DNA of 64,000 nucleotides, from assembly GCA_016795365.1 (NCBI GenBank), contig JAEUHN010000036.1:157163-221162 (forward strand). Direction: 5' to 3'. Positions 2,954-11,939 of this stretch are shown here, in pieces. The notes under the pieces were generated by a model. The model saw nothing but the letters and a program-made list of their open reading frames with translations, was not told the origin of the DNA and searched no databases. A program made the translations under genes and the position numbers. Source of the DNA: Verrucomicrobiaceae bacterium. Lineage in GTDB: Bacteria; Verrucomicrobiota; Verrucomicrobiia; Verrucomicrobiales; Verrucomicrobiaceae. Within the stretch, counting starts at the first letter, position 1. Each line of letters starts with the position of its first letter.

Positions 2954-3442
2954 ATGGAATCGCACGAAGTTCTTCGCCAGGCGCTTGAGAACGCCAGTCC
3001 CAAGGAAATTGCCGCCGAGATCGGCGTCTCGCTCTCCTTGGTTTACAAGTGGGCCCAGTCCCAGGATCAGGGCAGCGGCACCGTCAATCCGCTCGACCGC
3101 GTGCTTCAGATTTACCGTGTCTCGCGCGACGACACCGTGATCCAATGGATCTGCCGTCAGGCTGGAGGCTTCTTCGTCAAAAACCCGCGAGCAGAAAAAG
3201 GCACCTTCGATCTCATGCCTGCCACCCAGGCCATCGTGCAACAGTTCGCCGAAATGCTCACCGCCATCAGCAAGTCCGCCGCCGATCACACCATCACTGA
3301 CAAGGAAGCCAAGGAAATCCGCCGCGAATGGGATGAACTCAAGCGCTTCGCCGAAGGCTTTGTCCGTTGCTGCGAGAACGGCGATTTTGATAAGATGGAG
3401 CAACTCAGCCGAGAGGTTCGGTCACACCACAAAGAGGTCTGA
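2954..3442 (+). CDS. Phage CII/CP76-like regulatory protein
   Basis: A 162-residue protein resembling the phage regulatory CII (CP76) family. Residues 15-35 (SPKEIAAEIGVSLSLVYKWA) form a helix-turn-helix. After it come a middle segment, IQWICRQAGGFFVKNP, and a long helical C-terminal half rich in charged residues that may mediate oligomerisation. No other phage genes are nearby, so it appears to be a domesticated regulator, not part of a prophage. Its target is unknown. It converges with the lipoprotein gene downstream. Confidence 0.7.
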   Translation: MESHEVLRQALENASPKEIAAEIGVSLSLVYKWAQSQDQGSGTVNPLDRVLQIYRVSRDDTVIQWICRQAGGFFVKNPRAEKGTFDLMPATQAIVQQFAEMLTAISKSAADHTITDKEAKEIRREWDELKRFAEGFVRCCENGDFDKMEQLSREVRSHHKEV

Positions 3443-4163: not shown

Positions 4164-4418
4164 ATGAGTGATACCGAACAGACAGCTCTCGTTCCCGAAA
4201 TTCGGGGCATCCTTTCCCAGCACGGACGCATGCCCGTCGAGCAGCTTCAGGAGGGCGATGATCTCTACAACGCCGGCCTCACATCGCTGGCGACTGTTGC
4301 CGTCATGCTGGCGCTGGAGGACAAGTTCAATGTCGAGTTTCCCGACACCATGATTGGGCGTCGCACCTTCAAGAGCATCGAGTCCATCGCAGACGCGATT
4401 CGGCAGCTCGCTGCCTAG
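4164..4418 (+). CDS. Acyl carrier protein-like (aminoacyl carrier protein)
   Basis: An 84-residue carrier protein. It has the four-helix carrier signature with the phosphopantetheine attachment site in NAGLTSLATV, Ser41 being the predicted modified residue (the common DSL motif reads TSL here). The downstream tRNA-synthetase-like ligase suggests it carries an amino acid as a thioester, as shown for Bradyrhizobium aminoacyl carrier proteins. The frame is open 16 codons upstream, but MSDTEQTALVPEIRGIL is the natural start. It is the first gene of the cluster, 65 bases before the acyl-CoA dehydrogenase-like gene. Confidence 0.88.
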   Translation: MSDTEQTALVPEIRGILSQHGRMPVEQLQEGDDLYNAGLTSLATVAVMLALEDKFNVEFPDTMIGRRTFKSIESIADAIRQLAA

Positions 4419-4483: not shown

Positions 4484-5665
4484 GTGACCGCCCTACTCAG
4501 CACCGAGATCGACTTCGATCAGCTCCTTCAGAAAGTCCATGCCATTGGCAAATCCGTGTTGCGTGTCCATGCAGCGGATGTTGATGCCAAGGCACGGTTC
4601 CCCGTCGAGTCCATCAATGCTATGCGTGGGCTCCGCTTGCTCAGTGCTTACGTCCCTGAGTCGTATGGCGGCCTGGGACTGTCGGTGACCCAGGTGGCAA
4701 AGGTATGCGAGGCGCTCGGGCAATACTGTGGATCGTCCGCGATGATCTATGCGATGCACATGATCCAGGTGGCTTGCGTGGTGCATCATGCGCAGTCATC
4801 GGACTACTTTCGAGATTACCTCGGCGAGCTGGTCACTGATCAGCGCCTCATGGCGTCTGCTACCACAGAGATCGGCACAGGAGGCGATCTACGATCCAGC
4901 ATCTGCGCCCTCGAGACCACCGGCGACGAATTCATTGTCACCAAGCAGGCGCCCGTCATCTCCTATGGTGAAGACGCGGACGATCTCTTGCTCACATGCC
5001 GACAGTCTGCGGACGCGCCAGCCGACCTCCAGGCTCACGTCATGCTTCGCAAAGGAGAATACACCACGGAGGCGCTCTCGAACTGGGACACGCTCGGCTT
5101 CCGTGGCACATGCAGCTCCGGTTTCACGGTGAAAGCGAGCGGCCATGTGCAGCAGATCCTTCCCGAAACCTTTAGCAAAATCCTCAGCCAGACGATGCAT
5201 CCCTCGGCGCACATCTGGTGGAGCGCCCTCTGGGCAGGCATCGCCACAGATGCGGTCAATCTCGCCCGCGCCTTCGTGCGTGCAGAGGCACGGAAAACAC
5301 CCGGCGAAACACCCATCTCGGCCATTCGCCTTGGAGAGGTCGATCTGATGCTGCAAGAGATGCGTCACAACATGACCGCACACGCCAGGGACTATCAGGA
5401 ACGTCTGAGCAGTGAGAACCCTGATGCGTGCGAGGAATTCGGATTCGCGATTCGCACCAACAACCTCAAGCTCTCATCCTCAGCGAAGCTCGTGGACATC
5501 GTCGGTCGTGCGATGCTGATCTGCGGGATCTCGGGCTATCGCAATGATTCCAAGTTCAGCCTCGCGCGTCATCTCCGCGATGCCTACGGCGCTCAGTTGA
5601 TGGTGAACAACGACCGGATTCTAAAGCTCAACGCCACCATGCTGATGATTCACCGGGAAGCATAG
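4484..5665 (+). CDS. Acyl-CoA dehydrogenase family flavoprotein
   Basis: A 393-residue acyl-CoA dehydrogenase homologue starting at a GTG (4484). The N-terminal helical domain carries YVPESYGGLGLS, the middle beta domain MASATTEIGTGGDL with the FAD-binding region, and the C-terminal helical domain ICGISGYRNDSKFSLARHLRDA. I could not place the usual catalytic Glu with confidence. In this setting the substrate is likely a carrier-bound acyl or aminoacyl group, or the protein has a binding role; both are inferences. It ends four bases before the ligase ATG, so co-translation is likely. Confidence 0.87.
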   Translation: MTALLSTEIDFDQLLQKVHAIGKSVLRVHAADVDAKARFPVESINAMRGLRLLSAYVPESYGGLGLSVTQVAKVCEALGQYCGSSAMIYAMHMIQVACVVHHAQSSDYFRDYLGELVTDQRLMASATTEIGTGGDLRSSICALETTGDEFIVTKQAPVISYGEDADDLLLTCRQSADAPADLQAHVMLRKGEYTTEALSNWDTLGFRGTCSSGFTVKASGHVQQILPETFSKILSQTMHPSAHIWWSALWAGIATDAVNLARAFVRAEARKTPGETPISAIRLGEVDLMLQEMRHNMTAHARDYQERLSSENPDACEEFGFAIRTNNLKLSSSAKLVDIVGRAMLICGISGYRNDSKFSLARHLRDAYGAQLMVNNDRILKLNATMLMIHREA

Positions 5666-5669
5666 AACC

Positions 5670-6605
5670 ATGATCTGCAATTCCACCACCGCTCTGCCCC
5701 TCACGGCCGCCTACCAAGCCTTTCTCGACCAGCTGACAGAGGCCGGGCTCTTCATTCCCCAGGGCGTGCAGGGCGTCTATGGATTCAGTGGTGCCTTCGA
5801 GGATGTGCTCCAGGCCTTTGACCGCTTCACGATGCGACGCTCAGCCCACATCCCATCGGAGCCCATGCATTTTCCCGGCGTGCTCAGTCGTGAGGTGTAT
5901 TTGAAGACTTCACACATCGAAAACTTCCCCGACCTGATGGGCTCTGTCCACAGCTTCGTGGGACGTGAGCGCGAACATGCCGGCATGCTGGCCAAGCGGC
6001 AGCAAGGCGAGGAATGGACCCAGGACCTTTCGCCAAGCCAGTTGATGCTCACTCCGGCCGGATGCTATCAGTTGTATCCGACTGCGACCGGCACACTCAC
6101 CGAACAGGGAAGAACGGTCAAACTTGTGTCGTCGGTGTTCCGACACGAGCCCTCGGTCGATCCCTGCCGCATGCAAGTCTTCCGCATGAGAGAATACGTG
6201 CGCATTGGCACGCCCGACCAAGCTCTCGAGCACCGGCGGCAATGGCTCGCGCTGGGCAAGGACATCCTCACCGAATTAGGTCTCGGCGTCGAAGTCGTTC
6301 TGGCGAATGATCCCTTCTTCGGCCGTGGCGGGCGCGTCATGGCGGCCTCGCAGAAGGAGCAGGACTTGAAGCACGAGTTCACCATCGCGGTGGCAACCTC
6401 TGAGAAACCCACGGCCATTGGATCGACCAACTGCCACATGGACTACTTCGGCAAAACCTTCGACATCAAGACACCCGACGGTGCCACCGCCCACTCGGCG
6501 TGCATCGGGTTCGGCCTTGAGCGCGTGACGCTTGCCCTCTTCAAGCATCACGGGCTGGACCCGGATCACTGGCCGCAGGAGGTGAAGAACGCCCTGGCTC
6601 TATGA
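5670..6605 (+). CDS. Amino acid:[carrier protein] ligase, class II synthetase-like
   Basis: A 311-residue homologue of the catalytic core of atypical (methanogen-type) seryl-tRNA synthetases without a tRNA-binding domain. Characterised homologues in Bradyrhizobium activate small amino acids with ATP and load them on a carrier protein. Class II motif 2 is visible as VFRHEPS...FRMREYVRIG and motif 3 as GFGLERVTLALF. Cys132, Glu175 and Cys255 sit where the atypical SerRS group binds its active-site zinc. Amino-acid specificity (Gly or Ala is usual) cannot be read by eye. The stop overlaps the next ATG (ATGA at 6602). Confidence 0.9.
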   Translation: MICNSTTALPLTAAYQAFLDQLTEAGLFIPQGVQGVYGFSGAFEDVLQAFDRFTMRRSAHIPSEPMHFPGVLSREVYLKTSHIENFPDLMGSVHSFVGREREHAGMLAKRQQGEEWTQDLSPSQLMLTPAGCYQLYPTATGTLTEQGRTVKLVSSVFRHEPSVDPCRMQVFRMREYVRIGTPDQALEHRRQWLALGKDILTELGLGVEVVLANDPFFGRGGRVMAASQKEQDLKHEFTIAVATSEKPTAIGSTNCHMDYFGKTFDIKTPDGATAHSACIGFGLERVTLALFKHHGLDPDHWPQEVKNALAL

Positions 6606-7579
6606 TGCGGCAGCTCATCGCCCTCGACCCGAAGAACTACTCACGGCATCGTCTCCATGAGCAAGAACGCGATTGGGCAGAGACCAACTGCTACGTCGAT
6701 GTGTGGATCGAATTGCTGCACTCCTTGGGCCTCGATCCCATCGCGGCTCTTCCTTTTACGCTTGCCATCGACTTCGAAGGCGATCAGTGGACCTTCTTCA
6801 AGTATCCGCCTGAAGACCTCTTCGATCTCTACTCGCTCGACGTTCTTGAGCTGGCCATCTGGCGTCCGGTGCCTTTGCACATCGAGGAGCAGCTCTCGCT
6901 AGGCCGCCCCGTGCTCGTGGAGCTGGACTCCATGTTTCTGCCGGACACCGCAGGCAGTGCCTATCAACTCGACCATGTCAAAACCACGGTGGGCGTGGTG
7001 GAAATCGACATTGAAAATCAGCGCCTCGGCTACTTCCACGGGCAGGGCTATTACCACCTGCACGGCGATGACTTTGCCAACGTCTTCCACACGCGTGGTG
7101 AACGAAACCCAGCCATTCTCTCGCCTTACTGCGAGATCGTCAAACGCCGTTCCGCTGCGCCCTTGCAGGGTGAGGAACTGCTCCGAGCATCGCTTCGCCT
7201 CCTGACCAAGCACTTGCAGCGGCTGCCGCAGACCAATCCCTTCGAGAAGTTCAAGGCTCGCTTCGAAGCAGATCTCCAGTGGCTGGCGAATGAACCACTG
7301 ACCACCTTCCACCAATACTCGTTCGCCACGCTGCGGCAGTTTGGATCCTGCTACGAAGTGGCTGGAGCTTACCTCGGTTGGTTGCAGGGCCGGGGCATCG
7401 CCGGCCTGGAGCAGCCGATCGCGGCCATGCGCGCGCTTTCAACAAGTGCGAAGACCATGCAATTCCAACTCGCTCGCGCCATGGCGCGAAAGAAGCCCAT
7501 CGACCTCCAGCCCTTCGATCAAATGGCCGAGCACTGGTGCAGCGCCATCCAGCGCCTGAAGGATCAGTTTTCGCCGTGA
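6602..7579 (+). CDS. DUF1839 family protein, possible aminoacyl transferase
   Basis: A 325-residue DUF1839 protein; the family recurs beside amino acid:carrier-protein ligases. The N-terminal region has an invariant-looking Cys30 in ETNCYVDVW. Later comes GRPVLVELDSMFLPD (Asp109), then Asp124-His125 before a beta strand, and GYYHLHGDDF. This order (early Cys, GxPVLVxxD, then His) matches the cysteine-peptidase-like fold of BtrH, which transfers an acyl group from a carrier protein to an aminoglycoside in butirosin synthesis. I infer a transferase acting on the aminoacyl carrier protein; not proven. It overlaps both neighbours by four bases (ATGA, GTGA). Confidence 0.8.
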   Translation: MMRQLIALDPKNYSRHRLHEQERDWAETNCYVDVWIELLHSLGLDPIAALPFTLAIDFEGDQWTFFKYPPEDLFDLYSLDVLELAIWRPVPLHIEEQLSLGRPVLVELDSMFLPDTAGSAYQLDHVKTTVGVVEIDIENQRLGYFHGQGYYHLHGDDFANVFHTRGERNPAILSPYCEIVKRRSAAPLQGEELLRASLRLLTKHLQRLPQTNPFEKFKARFEADLQWLANEPLTTFHQYSFATLRQFGSCYEVAGAYLGWLQGRGIAGLEQPIAAMRALSTSAKTMQFQLARAMARKKPIDLQPFDQMAEHWCSAIQRLKDQFSP

Positions 7580-10095
7580 ACGACTCGGGCACAGCGACCT
7601 CGACGCACTCTCCAGCCCCAACCGTGAGCCTGGAGGATGTCCGGTGGTCGTGTTGTGCACAGCCCGCTGGCAGCATCATCGAGCCAGCTGACCTTGGCAC
7701 CGCTGCCTGCGATTGGATGCCCGCGCATGTGCCTGGCACCGTCGCATCTGCCTTGCATGCGAGCGGGCGATGGAATGATCAACATCCGATCGACCTCGAC
7801 GCTTGCGATTGGTGGTTCCGAGTATCGTTTGAGACGTCAGAATATGAGGCTGGTGTGCTCTGTTTTGATGGACTCGCAGGACTGGCCCAAGTCTGGCTCA
7901 ATGGCGAGTGTGTGCTGCAAGCGGACAACATGTTTCGCAGCTACCGTGTGGACGTCGCTGGACACCTGCTCGCCAGCAATGACCTCGTCATCGTCTTTCG
8001 CTCCCTCGCCTTCGAGCTAAAAAAAAGGCGTCCCCGTCCACGCTGGAAAACCAATCTCGTCACGCACCAGCAACTTCGTTGGATACGCACCAGCTTGTTA
8101 GGCCGCATCCCAGGCTGGACGCCACCCGTGCCAGCCATCGGGCCTTGGCGTGCCATTCGATTGGAGCAGGACAGCGTGTTGCTCAGCGAGATTCAGCATC
8201 GAGCCGCAATCGAAGGCGATGATGGAGTGGTCACTTTCAGTGCTCTTGCAACGGCGTCCGACCCTTTGCTTTCGGCGCGGCTGTGCGTTGGAGACCATGA
8301 AGTCGAACTGCAACTCAACGATCGTCGATTAACCGGCGACCTTCGCATCGCGAACCCGGTGCGGTGGTGGCCGCACACGCATGGTGAACCACACTTGTTT
8401 GAATGTCGTTTGATCGTTCAGACCACGACTGCGCAGAGAACCATCGTGTTGGACCGGATTGGCTTCCGGGCGCTGGAAATTCGCGGCGATCCCGGTTTTG
8501 GTCTGCGGATCAATGGAGAGCCTGTCTATTGTCGCGGTGCGTGCTGGACGACGGCTGACATCTTTACGCACTCGAGCACGACGGAGTCATTGCGGCACGA
8601 CCTTCACCTCGCCCGAGATGCGGGCATGAACATGGTTCGTCTGGGCGGCACCATGCACTACGAGAGCGATTCCTTCTATAGGCTGTGCGATGAACTCGGC
8701 ATCCTCGTGTGGCAGGACTTCATGTTCGCCAACATGGACTACCCCGTGGATGACTTGCTGTTTGCCGAGAACATCTCAATGGAAGCCCGCGAGCTTCTTG
8801 ATCGCCTCGCACCGCATCCTTCGGTGGTGGTGTATTGCGGCAGCAGCGAGATCGAGCAGCAGGCGGCAATGCTCGGCGTGCCGCGTGAGTTGTGGCGAAA
8901 TCGTTGGTTCGGTGAAGACCTGCCGGCGCTCTGCGCGCAATACCATCCCGGCACTGCCTATGTGCCGTCATCGCCCAGCGGTGGCACCTTGCCCTTCCAC
9001 GCGAAGAACGGCATTACTCACTACTATGGCATCGGAGCCTATCGGCGATCCCTGCGCGAACTGCGACAGGCAGATGTGAAGTTCACCACGGAGTGCCTCG
9101 GCTTTGCGAACATCCCTGAGCCTGAAGTGATCGACGAGTGCATGGGCGGACTGCTTCCAGTCACACATCATCCCAGGTGGAAGCAGCGCGTGCCTCGCGA
9201 CACCGGATCGGGCTGGGACTTCGAGGACGTTCGCGATCACTACCTGCGCGAGTGGTTCAACGTTGATCCTACCACTCAACGCAGCTTCGACATGCCGCGT
9301 TACCTGGAACTCAGTCGCGTGGTCTCGGGTGAATTGATGGCCCGCACCTTCGCTGAATGGCGCAGCGCGAGCAGCAACAATGCGGGAGCGCTGGTGTGGT
9401 TCTTCAAGGATCTCTGGGCGGCCTCTGGCTGGGGCATTCTCGATCATCGTGGCCTCCCGAAGGCTGCGTATTATCAACTCAAGCGTGCCTGGCAGACTCG
9501 ACAGCTGTGCCTCACAGACGAAGGCTTGGATGGCTTGCAGCTTCATCTCGTGAACGAAACACGGGAGGCCATTGACGGAGTTGTAGAGGTGCAGTTGCTG
9601 CGTGAGCCTGGCCACGTGTTGGCCAAGCATGAGGTGGAAGTCAGCGTCGCGGGTCGGTCGAAGGCAAGTCTCAGCGTCGATGAAATCGTCGGCGTCTTCA
9701 GAGACATCAACTATGCCTATCGCTTTGGTCCCCTCAGCCACCATGTCGTGGTGGCCACGTGGTTCGATGCCGACCGCCACAACCTCAGCGAAGCGTTTTA
9801 CTTCACGCGCTCACGTGATCCCGAGCCGCACTCCGTCTCCTGGCAGGCGCAAGGTGAACCACTAGGCGACGGTCGTTACCGGGTCGTTCTGCGGAGCGAC
9901 ACCTTTTTGCATCACGTTCGTTGCTCGGCGAAAGGCTTCCTGCCCGACGACAACTACTTCCACCTTGTCCCCGCACGGTCCAAGACCCTCACCTTCGCGC
10001 CTATCAAAGATCATGCTGGACCCTTGCGGGCCACGATCGAGGCTTTGAATGCCCTGGGAGAACTCACGGTGGACATCAAAGCCGCGCCTCACTGA
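7576..10095 (+). CDS. Glycoside hydrolase family 2, beta-mannosidase-like
   Basis: An 839-residue GH2 protein starting at a GTG (7576) that overlaps the DUF1839 stop. It has the sugar-binding domain (CDWWFRVSFE, WLNGE), an immunoglobulin-like domain, and a TIM barrel with GACWTTADIF and NMVRLGG. The acid/base region reads YCGSSEIEQQ, so Glu425 is kept but the preceding Asn usual in GH2 is Ser. The nucleophile region reads FTTECLGFANIP (Glu506). No signal peptide was seen, so it is probably cytoplasmic. In this cluster it may act on a glycoside intermediate or bind one without hydrolysis. Confidence 0.85.
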   Translation: MNDSGTATSTHSPAPTVSLEDVRWSCCAQPAGSIIEPADLGTAACDWMPAHVPGTVASALHASGRWNDQHPIDLDACDWWFRVSFETSEYEAGVLCFDGLAGLAQVWLNGECVLQADNMFRSYRVDVAGHLLASNDLVIVFRSLAFELKKRRPRPRWKTNLVTHQQLRWIRTSLLGRIPGWTPPVPAIGPWRAIRLEQDSVLLSEIQHRAAIEGDDGVVTFSALATASDPLLSARLCVGDHEVELQLNDRRLTGDLRIANPVRWWPHTHGEPHLFECRLIVQTTTAQRTIVLDRIGFRALEIRGDPGFGLRINGEPVYCRGACWTTADIFTHSSTTESLRHDLHLARDAGMNMVRLGGTMHYESDSFYRLCDELGILVWQDFMFANMDYPVDDLLFAENISMEARELLDRLAPHPSVVVYCGSSEIEQQAAMLGVPRELWRNRWFGEDLPALCAQYHPGTAYVPSSPSGGTLPFHAKNGITHYYGIGAYRRSLRELRQADVKFTTECLGFANIPEPEVIDECMGGLLPVTHHPRWKQRVPRDTGSGWDFEDVRDHYLREWFNVDPTTQRSFDMPRYLELSRVVSGELMARTFAEWRSASSNNAGALVWFFKDLWAASGWGILDHRGLPKAAYYQLKRAWQTRQLCLTDEGLDGLQLHLVNETREAIDGVVEVQLLREPGHVLAKHEVEVSVAGRSKASLSVDEIVGVFRDINYAYRFGPLSHHVVVATWFDADRHNLSEAFYFTRSRDPEPHSVSWQAQGEPLGDGRYRVVLRSDTFLHHVRCSAKGFLPDDNYFHLVPARSKTLTFAPIKDHAGPLRATIEALNALGELTVDIKAAPH

Positions 10096-10100
10096 ACGCC

Positions 10101-11939
10101 ATGTCTGTCGCCCTCCTGGAACCCGAGCTTCTCCACACGCACGATGCCGTGTTGGATGTTCGCGACCATGAAGTGGCGCGCACGGCCTGTTACTTCGAGA
10201 GCCAGCGGCGCTCTCTGTTTGCGTGGCTGCATCGACCTGCGGGCGTGGTTGCCCACCATGGTGTGCTGATCTGTCCGCCCCTTGGCCATGAGCTGGTTCA
10301 CGCGCATCGCTCGTTGCGGCACTTGGCTGATCGTCTGGCAGCTTCGGGCTTTGCAGCGATGAGGTTTGACTACGATGGGACGGGCGACTCTGAAGGCATG
10401 GATCATGATGCCCAGCGCATGCCGACGTGGGTGGCCAATGTGAACGACGCGGTCCAATGGCTGAAGCAGGAGGCTGGTTGTGACGTGGTGAGCCTGATCG
10501 GATTGCGCATGGGAGCAACGCTCGCCGCCTTGCATGCCGCAGAGCATCGCGTTGAGAATCTCGTGCTCTGGGAGCCGGTGGTGAAAGGCCGGCGCTACGT
10601 GCGTGAACTCACTGCTCTGAATCTGGCCGCCAGCCAGACGACCAACCCCTCATCCATGATCGAAGCGGTGGGTTTTGTTTTCACCAACGAGACGGCCCAA
10701 GCGCTGGCGAAGGTGGATCTGCTCACCGTGTCGCCGCAGTTCAGCAGCGGGCTCATGGTCCGCAGTGACAAAGGATCGAAGGACACCGCGCTCAAGGACC
10801 ATCTCGACACCCTCAGCAGCGACGTTCAGCAGGTGTGCTATCCGGGATTTGAAGAGATGATGGCCGAGCCCCAACACGCCGAGGTGCCCAGCGCGGCGCT
10901 CGAAGGCATCGTTGACTGGCTGGCTTCTCGTGAACTTCAGCTGCCCGAGCCAGGCCCGGCACGTCGCTTGGATGCTCCAGCCATGATGACAATGCACGGT
11001 TCACCACCAGTGCGTGAGAGCCTGCATCAGATCGCCGCAGAATCAGAATTGTTCGGCATTCTGACCGAGCCAGTCGATGGTGGCACAGCACGCCCATGGA
11101 TCATCATGCTCAATGGTGGAGCTGCCTATCACATCGGTCCGGGGCGACTGCATGTGCAGCTTGCACGTCATCTGGCGACGCTGGGTTACCCATGCCTGCG
11201 AATGGACATCAGTGGTCTGGGAGACAGTCCGGCGGACGATCCGAGGCACGAAAATGACGCTTATGCGGCCACCGCATTTCGCGACGTGGCACTGACCTGC
11301 GACTACTTGAATCGTTTGCAGCCCGATCGTCCGATCGTCCTCATGGGATTGTGTTCGGGTGCGTATGCGGCGTTTCAGTCGGTGGTGCAGTTGCCGCATC
11401 CAGCCTTGATCGAAGGCATCTTGCTTAACCCGCTCACTTTCTTTTGGCGCGAAGGCATGTCGCTCACGGCCTCTCCCACCCAGCGATTGCAGACGTGGCA
11501 TTACTATCGCAGCATCGTCTTTGATTCGAACAACTGGCGGCAACTTTTCTCTGGCAAGCCTGGGATGGGGATTGCAGGGGCGGTCCGGCGATTCGTCCAG
11601 CGCATGTTTCCTCGGGCAACGCATACCTTTTTGCCTCAGATCGCTCGAGATACTCGCAGCGACTATGGGCATCCTGCGAAGGAAGATCTCAGTGCGGACT
11701 TGAGTCGTGTGGCAACGACCTCGCGGAAACTCGCGATGTTTGTCTCCGAAGGCGATCCCGGGCACTTCCTGCTGATGCATCAAGCCCGACGCAAGGCCTT
11801 GAAGATGATTCGCAAAGGCCAGCTAAAGTGCTTCTTCGTGAAGGATGCGGACCACACGTTCTCCACGGAAGCGGCGCGCCGATCCTTGACCCAGAGCCTC
11901 ACGGATTACCTCGAGAGCCGGTTCTCGTCCGAGGCTTGA
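10101..11939 (+). CDS. Tandem alpha/beta-hydrolase protein with non-Ser nucleophile elbows
   Basis: A 612-residue protein with two alpha/beta-hydrolase domains (about residues 20-290 and 310-610). The first resembles exosortase-associated hydrolases and has RFDYDGTGDSEG and a nucleophile elbow GLRMG, with Arg136 where Ser is expected. The second has RMDISGLGDSPADD and an elbow GLCSG with Cys418, plus a candidate catalytic His585 in DADHTFS. The first domain may be inactive, and the second could be a Cys-dependent thioesterase, acyltransferase or hydrolase. It starts five bases after the GH2 gene and is probably the last gene of the cluster. Confidence 0.8.
   Translation: MSVALLEPELLHTHDAVLDVRDHEVARTACYFESQRRSLFAWLHRPAGVVAHHGVLICPPLGHELVHAHRSLRHLADRLAASGFAAMRFDYDGTGDSEGMDHDAQRMPTWVANVNDAVQWLKQEAGCDVVSLIGLRMGATLAALHAAEHRVENLVLWEPVVKGRRYVRELTALNLAASQTTNPSSMIEAVGFVFTNETAQALAKVDLLTVSPQFSSGLMVRSDKGSKDTALKDHLDTLSSDVQQVCYPGFEEMMAEPQHAEVPSAALEGIVDWLASRELQLPEPGPARRLDAPAMMTMHGSPPVRESLHQIAAESELFGILTEPVDGGTARPWIIMLNGGAAYHIGPGRLHVQLARHLATLGYPCLRMDISGLGDSPADDPRHENDAYAATAFRDVALTCDYLNRLQPDRPIVLMGLCSGAYAAFQSVVQLPHPALIEGILLNPLTFFWREGMSLTASPTQRLQTWHYYRSIVFDSNNWRQLFSGKPGMGIAGAVRRFVQRMFPRATHTFLPQIARDTRSDYGHPAKEDLSADLSRVATTSRKLAMFVSEGDPGHFLLMHQARRKALKMIRKGQLKCFFVKDADHTFSTEAARRSLTQSLTDYLESRFSSEA

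Follow-up and report, generated by a model that had tools for sequence, protein, structure and literature searches.

Ligases of the tRNA-synthetase fold that charge carrier proteins were reportedly described in 2010, and we know of no established product for them. In a note in proof of that year, an open reading frame linked to such a ligase was predicted, from gene neighbourhoods, to form an amide bond to an amino sugar (PMC2922099), and this frame, Atu2574, is very probably a DUF1839 gene, judging by gene order. A 2023 survey of papain-like proteins counted DUF1839 among them and gave it, by 3D modelling, a C(T/S)H active site (PMC10318531). The lincosamide condensing enzyme CcbD takes carrier-bound proline onto a catalytic Cys and hands it on to the amine of a thiooctose, an amino-octose (PMC12945683).

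For the DUF1839 protein studied here we give roughly two chances in three to the reading that it is a papain-like condensing enzyme of the BtrH/CcbD type, which would pass a carrier-bound acyl group to an amine; this reading draws on gene order and linkage, the modelled fold, residue conservation and analogy. Since the same role was predicted in 2010, the functional idea is largely a rediscovery, and to our knowledge, as far as we searched, what has not appeared in print is the kinship in structure with CcbD, CtaG and AziU3, together with the change of loader in lineages that lack the ligase.

Gene neighbourhood and distribution

In the window, the whole 64,000-nucleotide stretch of Verrucomicrobiaceae DNA that was analysed, six genes on the same strand were found to form a cassette:

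4164..4418, + strand: acyl (aminoacyl) carrier protein (PF00550, 1e-07; NF005480, 97.9 bits, cut-off 72)
4484..5665, + strand: acyl-CoA-dehydrogenase-like flavoprotein (PF02771/PF00441)
5670..6605, + strand: amino acid:[carrier protein] ligase, class II seryl-tRNA-synthetase-like (NF005479, 400.9 bits, equivalog cut-off 357)
6602..7579, + strand: DUF1839 gene (PF08893), product predicted to be a papain-like, BtrH/CcbD-type carrier-protein acyltransferase
7576..10095, + strand: GH2 glycosidase, beta-mannosidase type (PF22666; beta-mannosidase 5n6u, 1.7e-60)
10101..11939, + strand: double alpha/beta hydrolase (TIGR03101, 124.5 bits, and TIGR03100, 138 bits, both under cut-off)

The DUF1839 frame encodes 325 amino acids from an ATG start and matches its Pfam family with 401.1 bits (4.5e-120; cut-off 22.5), so that both the frame and the family assigned to it in the first-pass annotation were borne out, as was the direct overlap with the ligase: the sequence ATGA at 6602-6605 holds the DUF1839 start and the ligase stop (6603-6605), an overlap of 4 bases. 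The DUF1839 stop in turn overlaps the GTG start (GTGA) of the GH2 gene at 7576. The ATG start of the carrier protein is inferred and lies inside a longer TTG frame; its phosphopantetheine Ser, in the motif GLTSL, was invariant in 58 homologs, including those from cassettes without a ligase. A role in altering the acyl group on the carrier is predicted for the flavoprotein. By register, its residues V374-N375-N376 occupy the place of the MCAD-type catalytic Glu and the positions just after it, and since N376 of this segment is invariant in 61 sequences, catalysis may rely on a different base, or the protein may be an oxygenase. The closest PDB match of the ligase was Bll0957 of Bradyrhizobium (3mey; 1.7e-65). 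In the GH2 protein the putative nucleophile E506 was kept in 57/57 homologs and the putative acid/base E425 in 51/57, with Asp or Gln in the other six. The double hydrolase resembles exosortase-A-associated hydrolases 2 and 1. On contigs of the host genome other than that of the cassette there are two exosortase-like genes, at C41:78220-78984 and C51:130607-131332, one over the cut-off and one just below it. Upstream of the cassette, at 2954-3442 of the window, lies a gene for a small HTH protein with a match to Phage_CP76 (phage regulatory protein CII).

When bacterial and archaeal genomes were scanned, DUF1839 relatives of 41-74% identity turned up at 64 loci, distributed over Verrucomicrobiota, Planctomycetota, Pseudomonadota, Actinomycetota, Acidobacteriota, Gemmatimonadota and Myxococcota. 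The order carrier protein, flavoprotein, (ligase), DUF1839, GH2 and often hydrolase was constant in almost all of them, with the ligase directly upstream of DUF1839 in 49 of 63 evaluable loci. It was retained on annotated Rhizobium and Azospirillum plasmids, and in Burkholderia, Shinella and Methylobacterium. Within one alphaproteobacterial order DUF1839 occurred in 29 of 76 genomes, and all 20 loci inspected there had flavoprotein, ligase and DUF1839 in series; in the host's own order its occurrence was patchy (9/142 genomes). Linkage of DUF1839 to a carrier protein is near-constant, and linkage to the ligase is usual. In most verrucomicrobial relatives (L002:15373, L006:14602, L022:14621 and others) the cassette is followed after about 1-3 kb by a polysaccharide-deacetylase-like frame. 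Two alphaproteobacterial loci (L117:5831-8026 and L118:6021-8189) lack DUF1839 but have adjacent homologs of the ligase and the flavoprotein, the L118 pair adjoining homoserine/sulfhydrylase-type genes; this arrangement is another use of the ligase.

Structure prediction and remote homology

Direct searches placed the protein in its own family only. The BtrH_N model PF14399 gave no direct match, hmmscan with E up to 1 returning DUF1839 alone; a PDB search with the protein sequence gave no relative, only chance rubredoxin matches at E >0.4, and one with a 56-row DUF1839 profile gave 0 matches. As these searches were empty, kinship to known enzymes is visible only through fold and profile-profile comparison.

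An AlphaFold2 model built on the 56-row alignment (pLDDT 93.5, pTM 0.91) showed a papain-like core, in which Cys30 opens the core helix (30-41) at its N-terminus and strands with the other predicted catalytic residues follow (104-109, 127-136, 141-146, 149-154). A helical C-terminal part completes the full-length fold that is seen in enzymes of the BtrH/CcbD/CtaG type. Searched against the PDB with Foldseek, the model matched 19 chains at E<=0.001, all of them AziU3, CtaG or CcbD and all near full length (TM 0.55-0.62 by query, rmsd 5-7 A, sequence identity about 13%); the next matches were ordinary papain-like proteases at E >0.05, and no match at E<=0.001 came from a viral fold library.

Profile-profile comparison with hhalign of 56 DUF1839 against 9 BtrH_N sequences gave a score of 40.1 (E=1.1e-4, probability 56), against a maximum of 25.5 in 150 column shuffles and 17.2 for the reversed alignment, and paired Cys30 with the BtrH Cys and the G-x-P-V...Asp109 segment with its BtrH_N counterpart. 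In close relatives of the host, matches to BtrH_N were weak and all below threshold. The first-pass annotation had likened the protein to BtrH_N by eye, from an early Cys30 in ETNCYVD, Asp109 in GRPVLVELD and Asp124-His125 ahead of a strand (127-136 in the model); the motif order is present and the likeness is beyond chance. A resemblance of DUF1839 in fold and family to BtrH-type enzymes is therefore very likely, to the point of near certainty.

The fold also bears on what the enzyme may do. AziU3 has been reported to form an aziridine, not an intermolecular amide, which counts against an amide-transfer reading. With AziU3 among the best fold matches, and papain-like enzymes often being hydrolases, DUF1839 could be an AziU3-like cyclase or a thioesterase releasing the carrier-bound amino acid to water, in either case with no intermolecular transfer. 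We consider this improbable: the full-length fold is common to the carrier-protein enzymes CtaG and CcbD, of which CcbD is a proven condensing enzyme, hydrolytic release would waste ATP, and the glycan-linked neighbours suggest an acceptor. More improbable still is the guess made in the 2023 survey, from the glycosidase and dehydrogenase in the gene context, of an acyl-CoA-dependent enzyme that processes cell-wall glycan (PMC10318531), since the acyl-bearing neighbour is a carrier protein and not CoA, the fold matches are carrier-protein enzymes, and the GH2 protein of the window has no obvious signal peptide or other secretion signal by eye. Transfer from a carrier protein to an amine remains the reading that we prefer.

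Conserved residues and the predicted catalytic triad

Conservation was counted over 92 sequences (91 for some residues). The positions of most interest were:

6689..6691, + strand: Cys30, predicted nucleophile (91/91; N-terminus of the core helix in the model)
6926..6928, + strand: Asp109 of GxPVxxxxD (92/92; aligned by hhalign with the invariant Asp of BtrH_N)
6983..6985, + strand: Thr128, Ser or Thr in all (T 55, S 37 of 92; canonical His position, strand 127-136)
7037..7039, + strand: His146, at the place of the canonical acid and predicted to be the catalytic His (92/92; end of strand 141-146 in the model)
7475..7495, + strand: basic C-terminal helix (R292 91/91, R296 85/91, K/R298 90/91)

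Invariant wherever present were Cys30, Asp109, Lys127, His146, Glu178, His237, Arg245 and Arg292. By analogy, Asp109 is a possible counterpart of CcbD Asp114, the role of which has been described (PMC12945683). The initial reading of the sequence had overlooked the invariant His146 and the position 128 that is always Ser or Thr, and had singled out Asp124-His125, of which only the second residue stood up: His125 was kept in 90/92 sequences, Asp124 was Asp in only 6/92, and because of this poor conservation the two do not form a conserved pair.

The same enzyme and chemistry could be served by a canonical triad of Cys30, His125 and an acid, as the first-pass annotation proposed. The high conservation of His125 is in its favour, and so are the stronger hhalign run (that with 9 BtrH_N sequences), which paired His125 with the His of BtrH at the cost of a 3-residue gap, and the distance from Asp109 to His, which is 16 in both DUF1839 and the BtrH_N member L088. 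Against it, position 125 is Arg in two separate lineages (Luteimicrobium and one Azospirillum), whereas His146 and Ser/Thr128 were found without exception. The 18 residues from Thr128 to His146 equal the His-to-acid (Asp) distance in L088, that from His125 to His146 being 21, and another BtrH_N member, L095, can be matched by eye to DUF1839 from Asp109 to His146 without a gap, with Thr128 opposite its His and His146 opposite its Asp. This ungapped reading is a spacing argument and not a scored alignment, since hhalign against the two-row BtrH_N subset (L095 and L096) was not significant (E=0.051). Published modelling likewise gives C(T/S)H (PMC10318531). On conservation, spacing and that published assignment we prefer a triad of Cys30, Ser/Thr128 and His146, and judge the His125-acid triad the weaker and less likely reading, despite the hhalign pairing.

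Loss of the ligase

Fourteen loci, nearly all gammaproteobacterial, had no ligase, and none was found elsewhere in the ten ligase-less genomes searched (several of them incomplete MAGs, five of them isolates). On the DUF1839 tree, the label of ligase presence or absence needs at least 5 changes. Retained in these cassettes are the carrier protein, the phosphopantetheine Ser of which is invariant, and DUF1839, in which no key residue is missing. It follows that the donor need not always be aminoacyl, and as the carrier protein persists in cassettes without a ligase, it is this protein, and not the ligase, that seems to be the constant partner of DUF1839.

Proteins of the FkbH type load glyceryl on carrier proteins. 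An FkbH gene was found in the flanks of five ligase-less cassettes (L032, L035, L038, L042 and L063), and cassettes with an FkbH neighbour were mostly ligase-less. Frames for FkbH-domain proteins near cassettes were located at L032:14835-16493, L038:13363-15069 and L036:14654-16402, and also in L018, L035, L042 and L063; the three that were scanned (L032, L038 and L036) exceeded the TIGR01686 cut-off. FkbH is thus a possible alternative loader. At the level of whole genomes, FkbH over the cut-off was present in 6 of 10 ligase-less hosts versus 1 of 7 ligase-bearing ones (one-sided Fisher about 0.08, by hand), an enrichment that is suggestive only, and a universal replacement of the ligase by FkbH is unsupported by these counts. 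An AMP-forming adenylation enzyme was also considered as a substitute loader; among ten selected frames near cassettes there was none, and FkbH was found instead.

Proteins of the XrtA/PEP-CTERM-associated FemAB family (TIGR03019, over cut-off) are encoded upstream of two ligase-less cassettes, at L032:4712-6172 and L042:3517-5061, which ties those cassettes to exopolysaccharide/XrtA loci. A broader conjecture, which we offer tentatively and hold to be doubtful, is that DUF1839 works as a carrier-protein acyltransferase independent of the loader and has a rewired Cys-Ser/Thr-His site; it would transfer an aminoacyl group where the ligase is present and otherwise, for example, FkbH-loaded glyceryl, to one kind of glycan acceptor.

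Discussion

In the pathway that we propose, the ligase would load an amino acid onto the carrier protein, the flavoprotein may modify or oxidise the bound amino acid, and DUF1839 would form a thioester between the acyl group and Cys30, in ping-pong fashion, and pass the acyl group to an acceptor amine held near Asp109. Cys30 would be activated by His146, itself oriented by Ser/Thr128, and the basic C-terminal helix (Arg292, Arg296 and Lys298), a candidate docking face, could bind the carrier protein as the Arg patch of CcbD does. That the donor is carrier-bound is likely. The acceptor is the least certain step, and the chances that it is an amino sugar are about even; this suggestion comes from the glycosidase, which is nearly always adjacent, and from some gammaproteobacterial cassettes, which adjoin an XrtA-type FemAB protein, polysaccharide deacetylases and membrane acyltransferases. 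Counting against a condensing enzyme are the moderate TM (about 0.6) and the identity of about 13%, the 14 ligase-less loci and the two loci with ligase and flavoprotein that lack DUF1839. Of the BtrH-like idea from which this study began, the fold and the probable chemistry were upheld by the matches to AziU3, CtaG and CcbD and by the BtrH_N profile, while the triad proposed with it fared poorly.

With a structurally grounded enzyme on the acceptor side, encoded in a fixed six-gene cassette, the pathway can be tested directly. If the reading is true, DUF1839 would be a natural Ser/Thr-for-His, His-for-Asp variant among papain-like condensing enzymes, of use in studying and engineering how amides are formed outside NRPS condensation domains.

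Comparison with known systems

Closest in structural terms was CtaG of the closthioamide cluster, whose TM-scores, up to 0.64 by target length, were the highest. Its Cys, His and Asp variants have been solved in the PDB, where titles mark C11, H128 and D144 as key residues; unlike DUF1839 it has no Ser/Thr-His swap, and its product is different. BtrH and the BtrH_N family align with DUF1839 at the Cys, the GxPV and the Asp (hhalign E 1.1e-4), but DUF1839 fails the PF14399 model itself and its triad appears rearranged. The DUF1839 family of the 2023 survey includes the window protein as a plain member and the C(T/S)H assignment agrees with ours, whereas an acyl-CoA-dependent glycan role, and not carrier-protein transfer, was suggested there (PMC10318531). 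Neither fold nor mechanism was given with the 2010 prediction for Atu2574, the neighbourhood of which shares with the present locus the carrier protein, redox enzyme, ligase, conserved frame and glycosidase (PMC2922099). CcbD and LmbD differ from DUF1839 in sequence (about 13-15% identity), in the Cys-His-Glu triad of CcbD, where DUF1839 has Ser/Thr at the canonical His place, and in their loader, an NRPS-type adenylation protein in place of a synthetase-like ligase. They are alike in full-length fold (TM about 0.6), in the carrier-protein partner, which for DUF1839 is predicted from strong gene linkage, and in the early Cys, and CcbD also in its carrier-binding Arg patch, which may correspond to the basic C-terminal helix of DUF1839, and possibly in Asp114, as the equivalent of Asp109.
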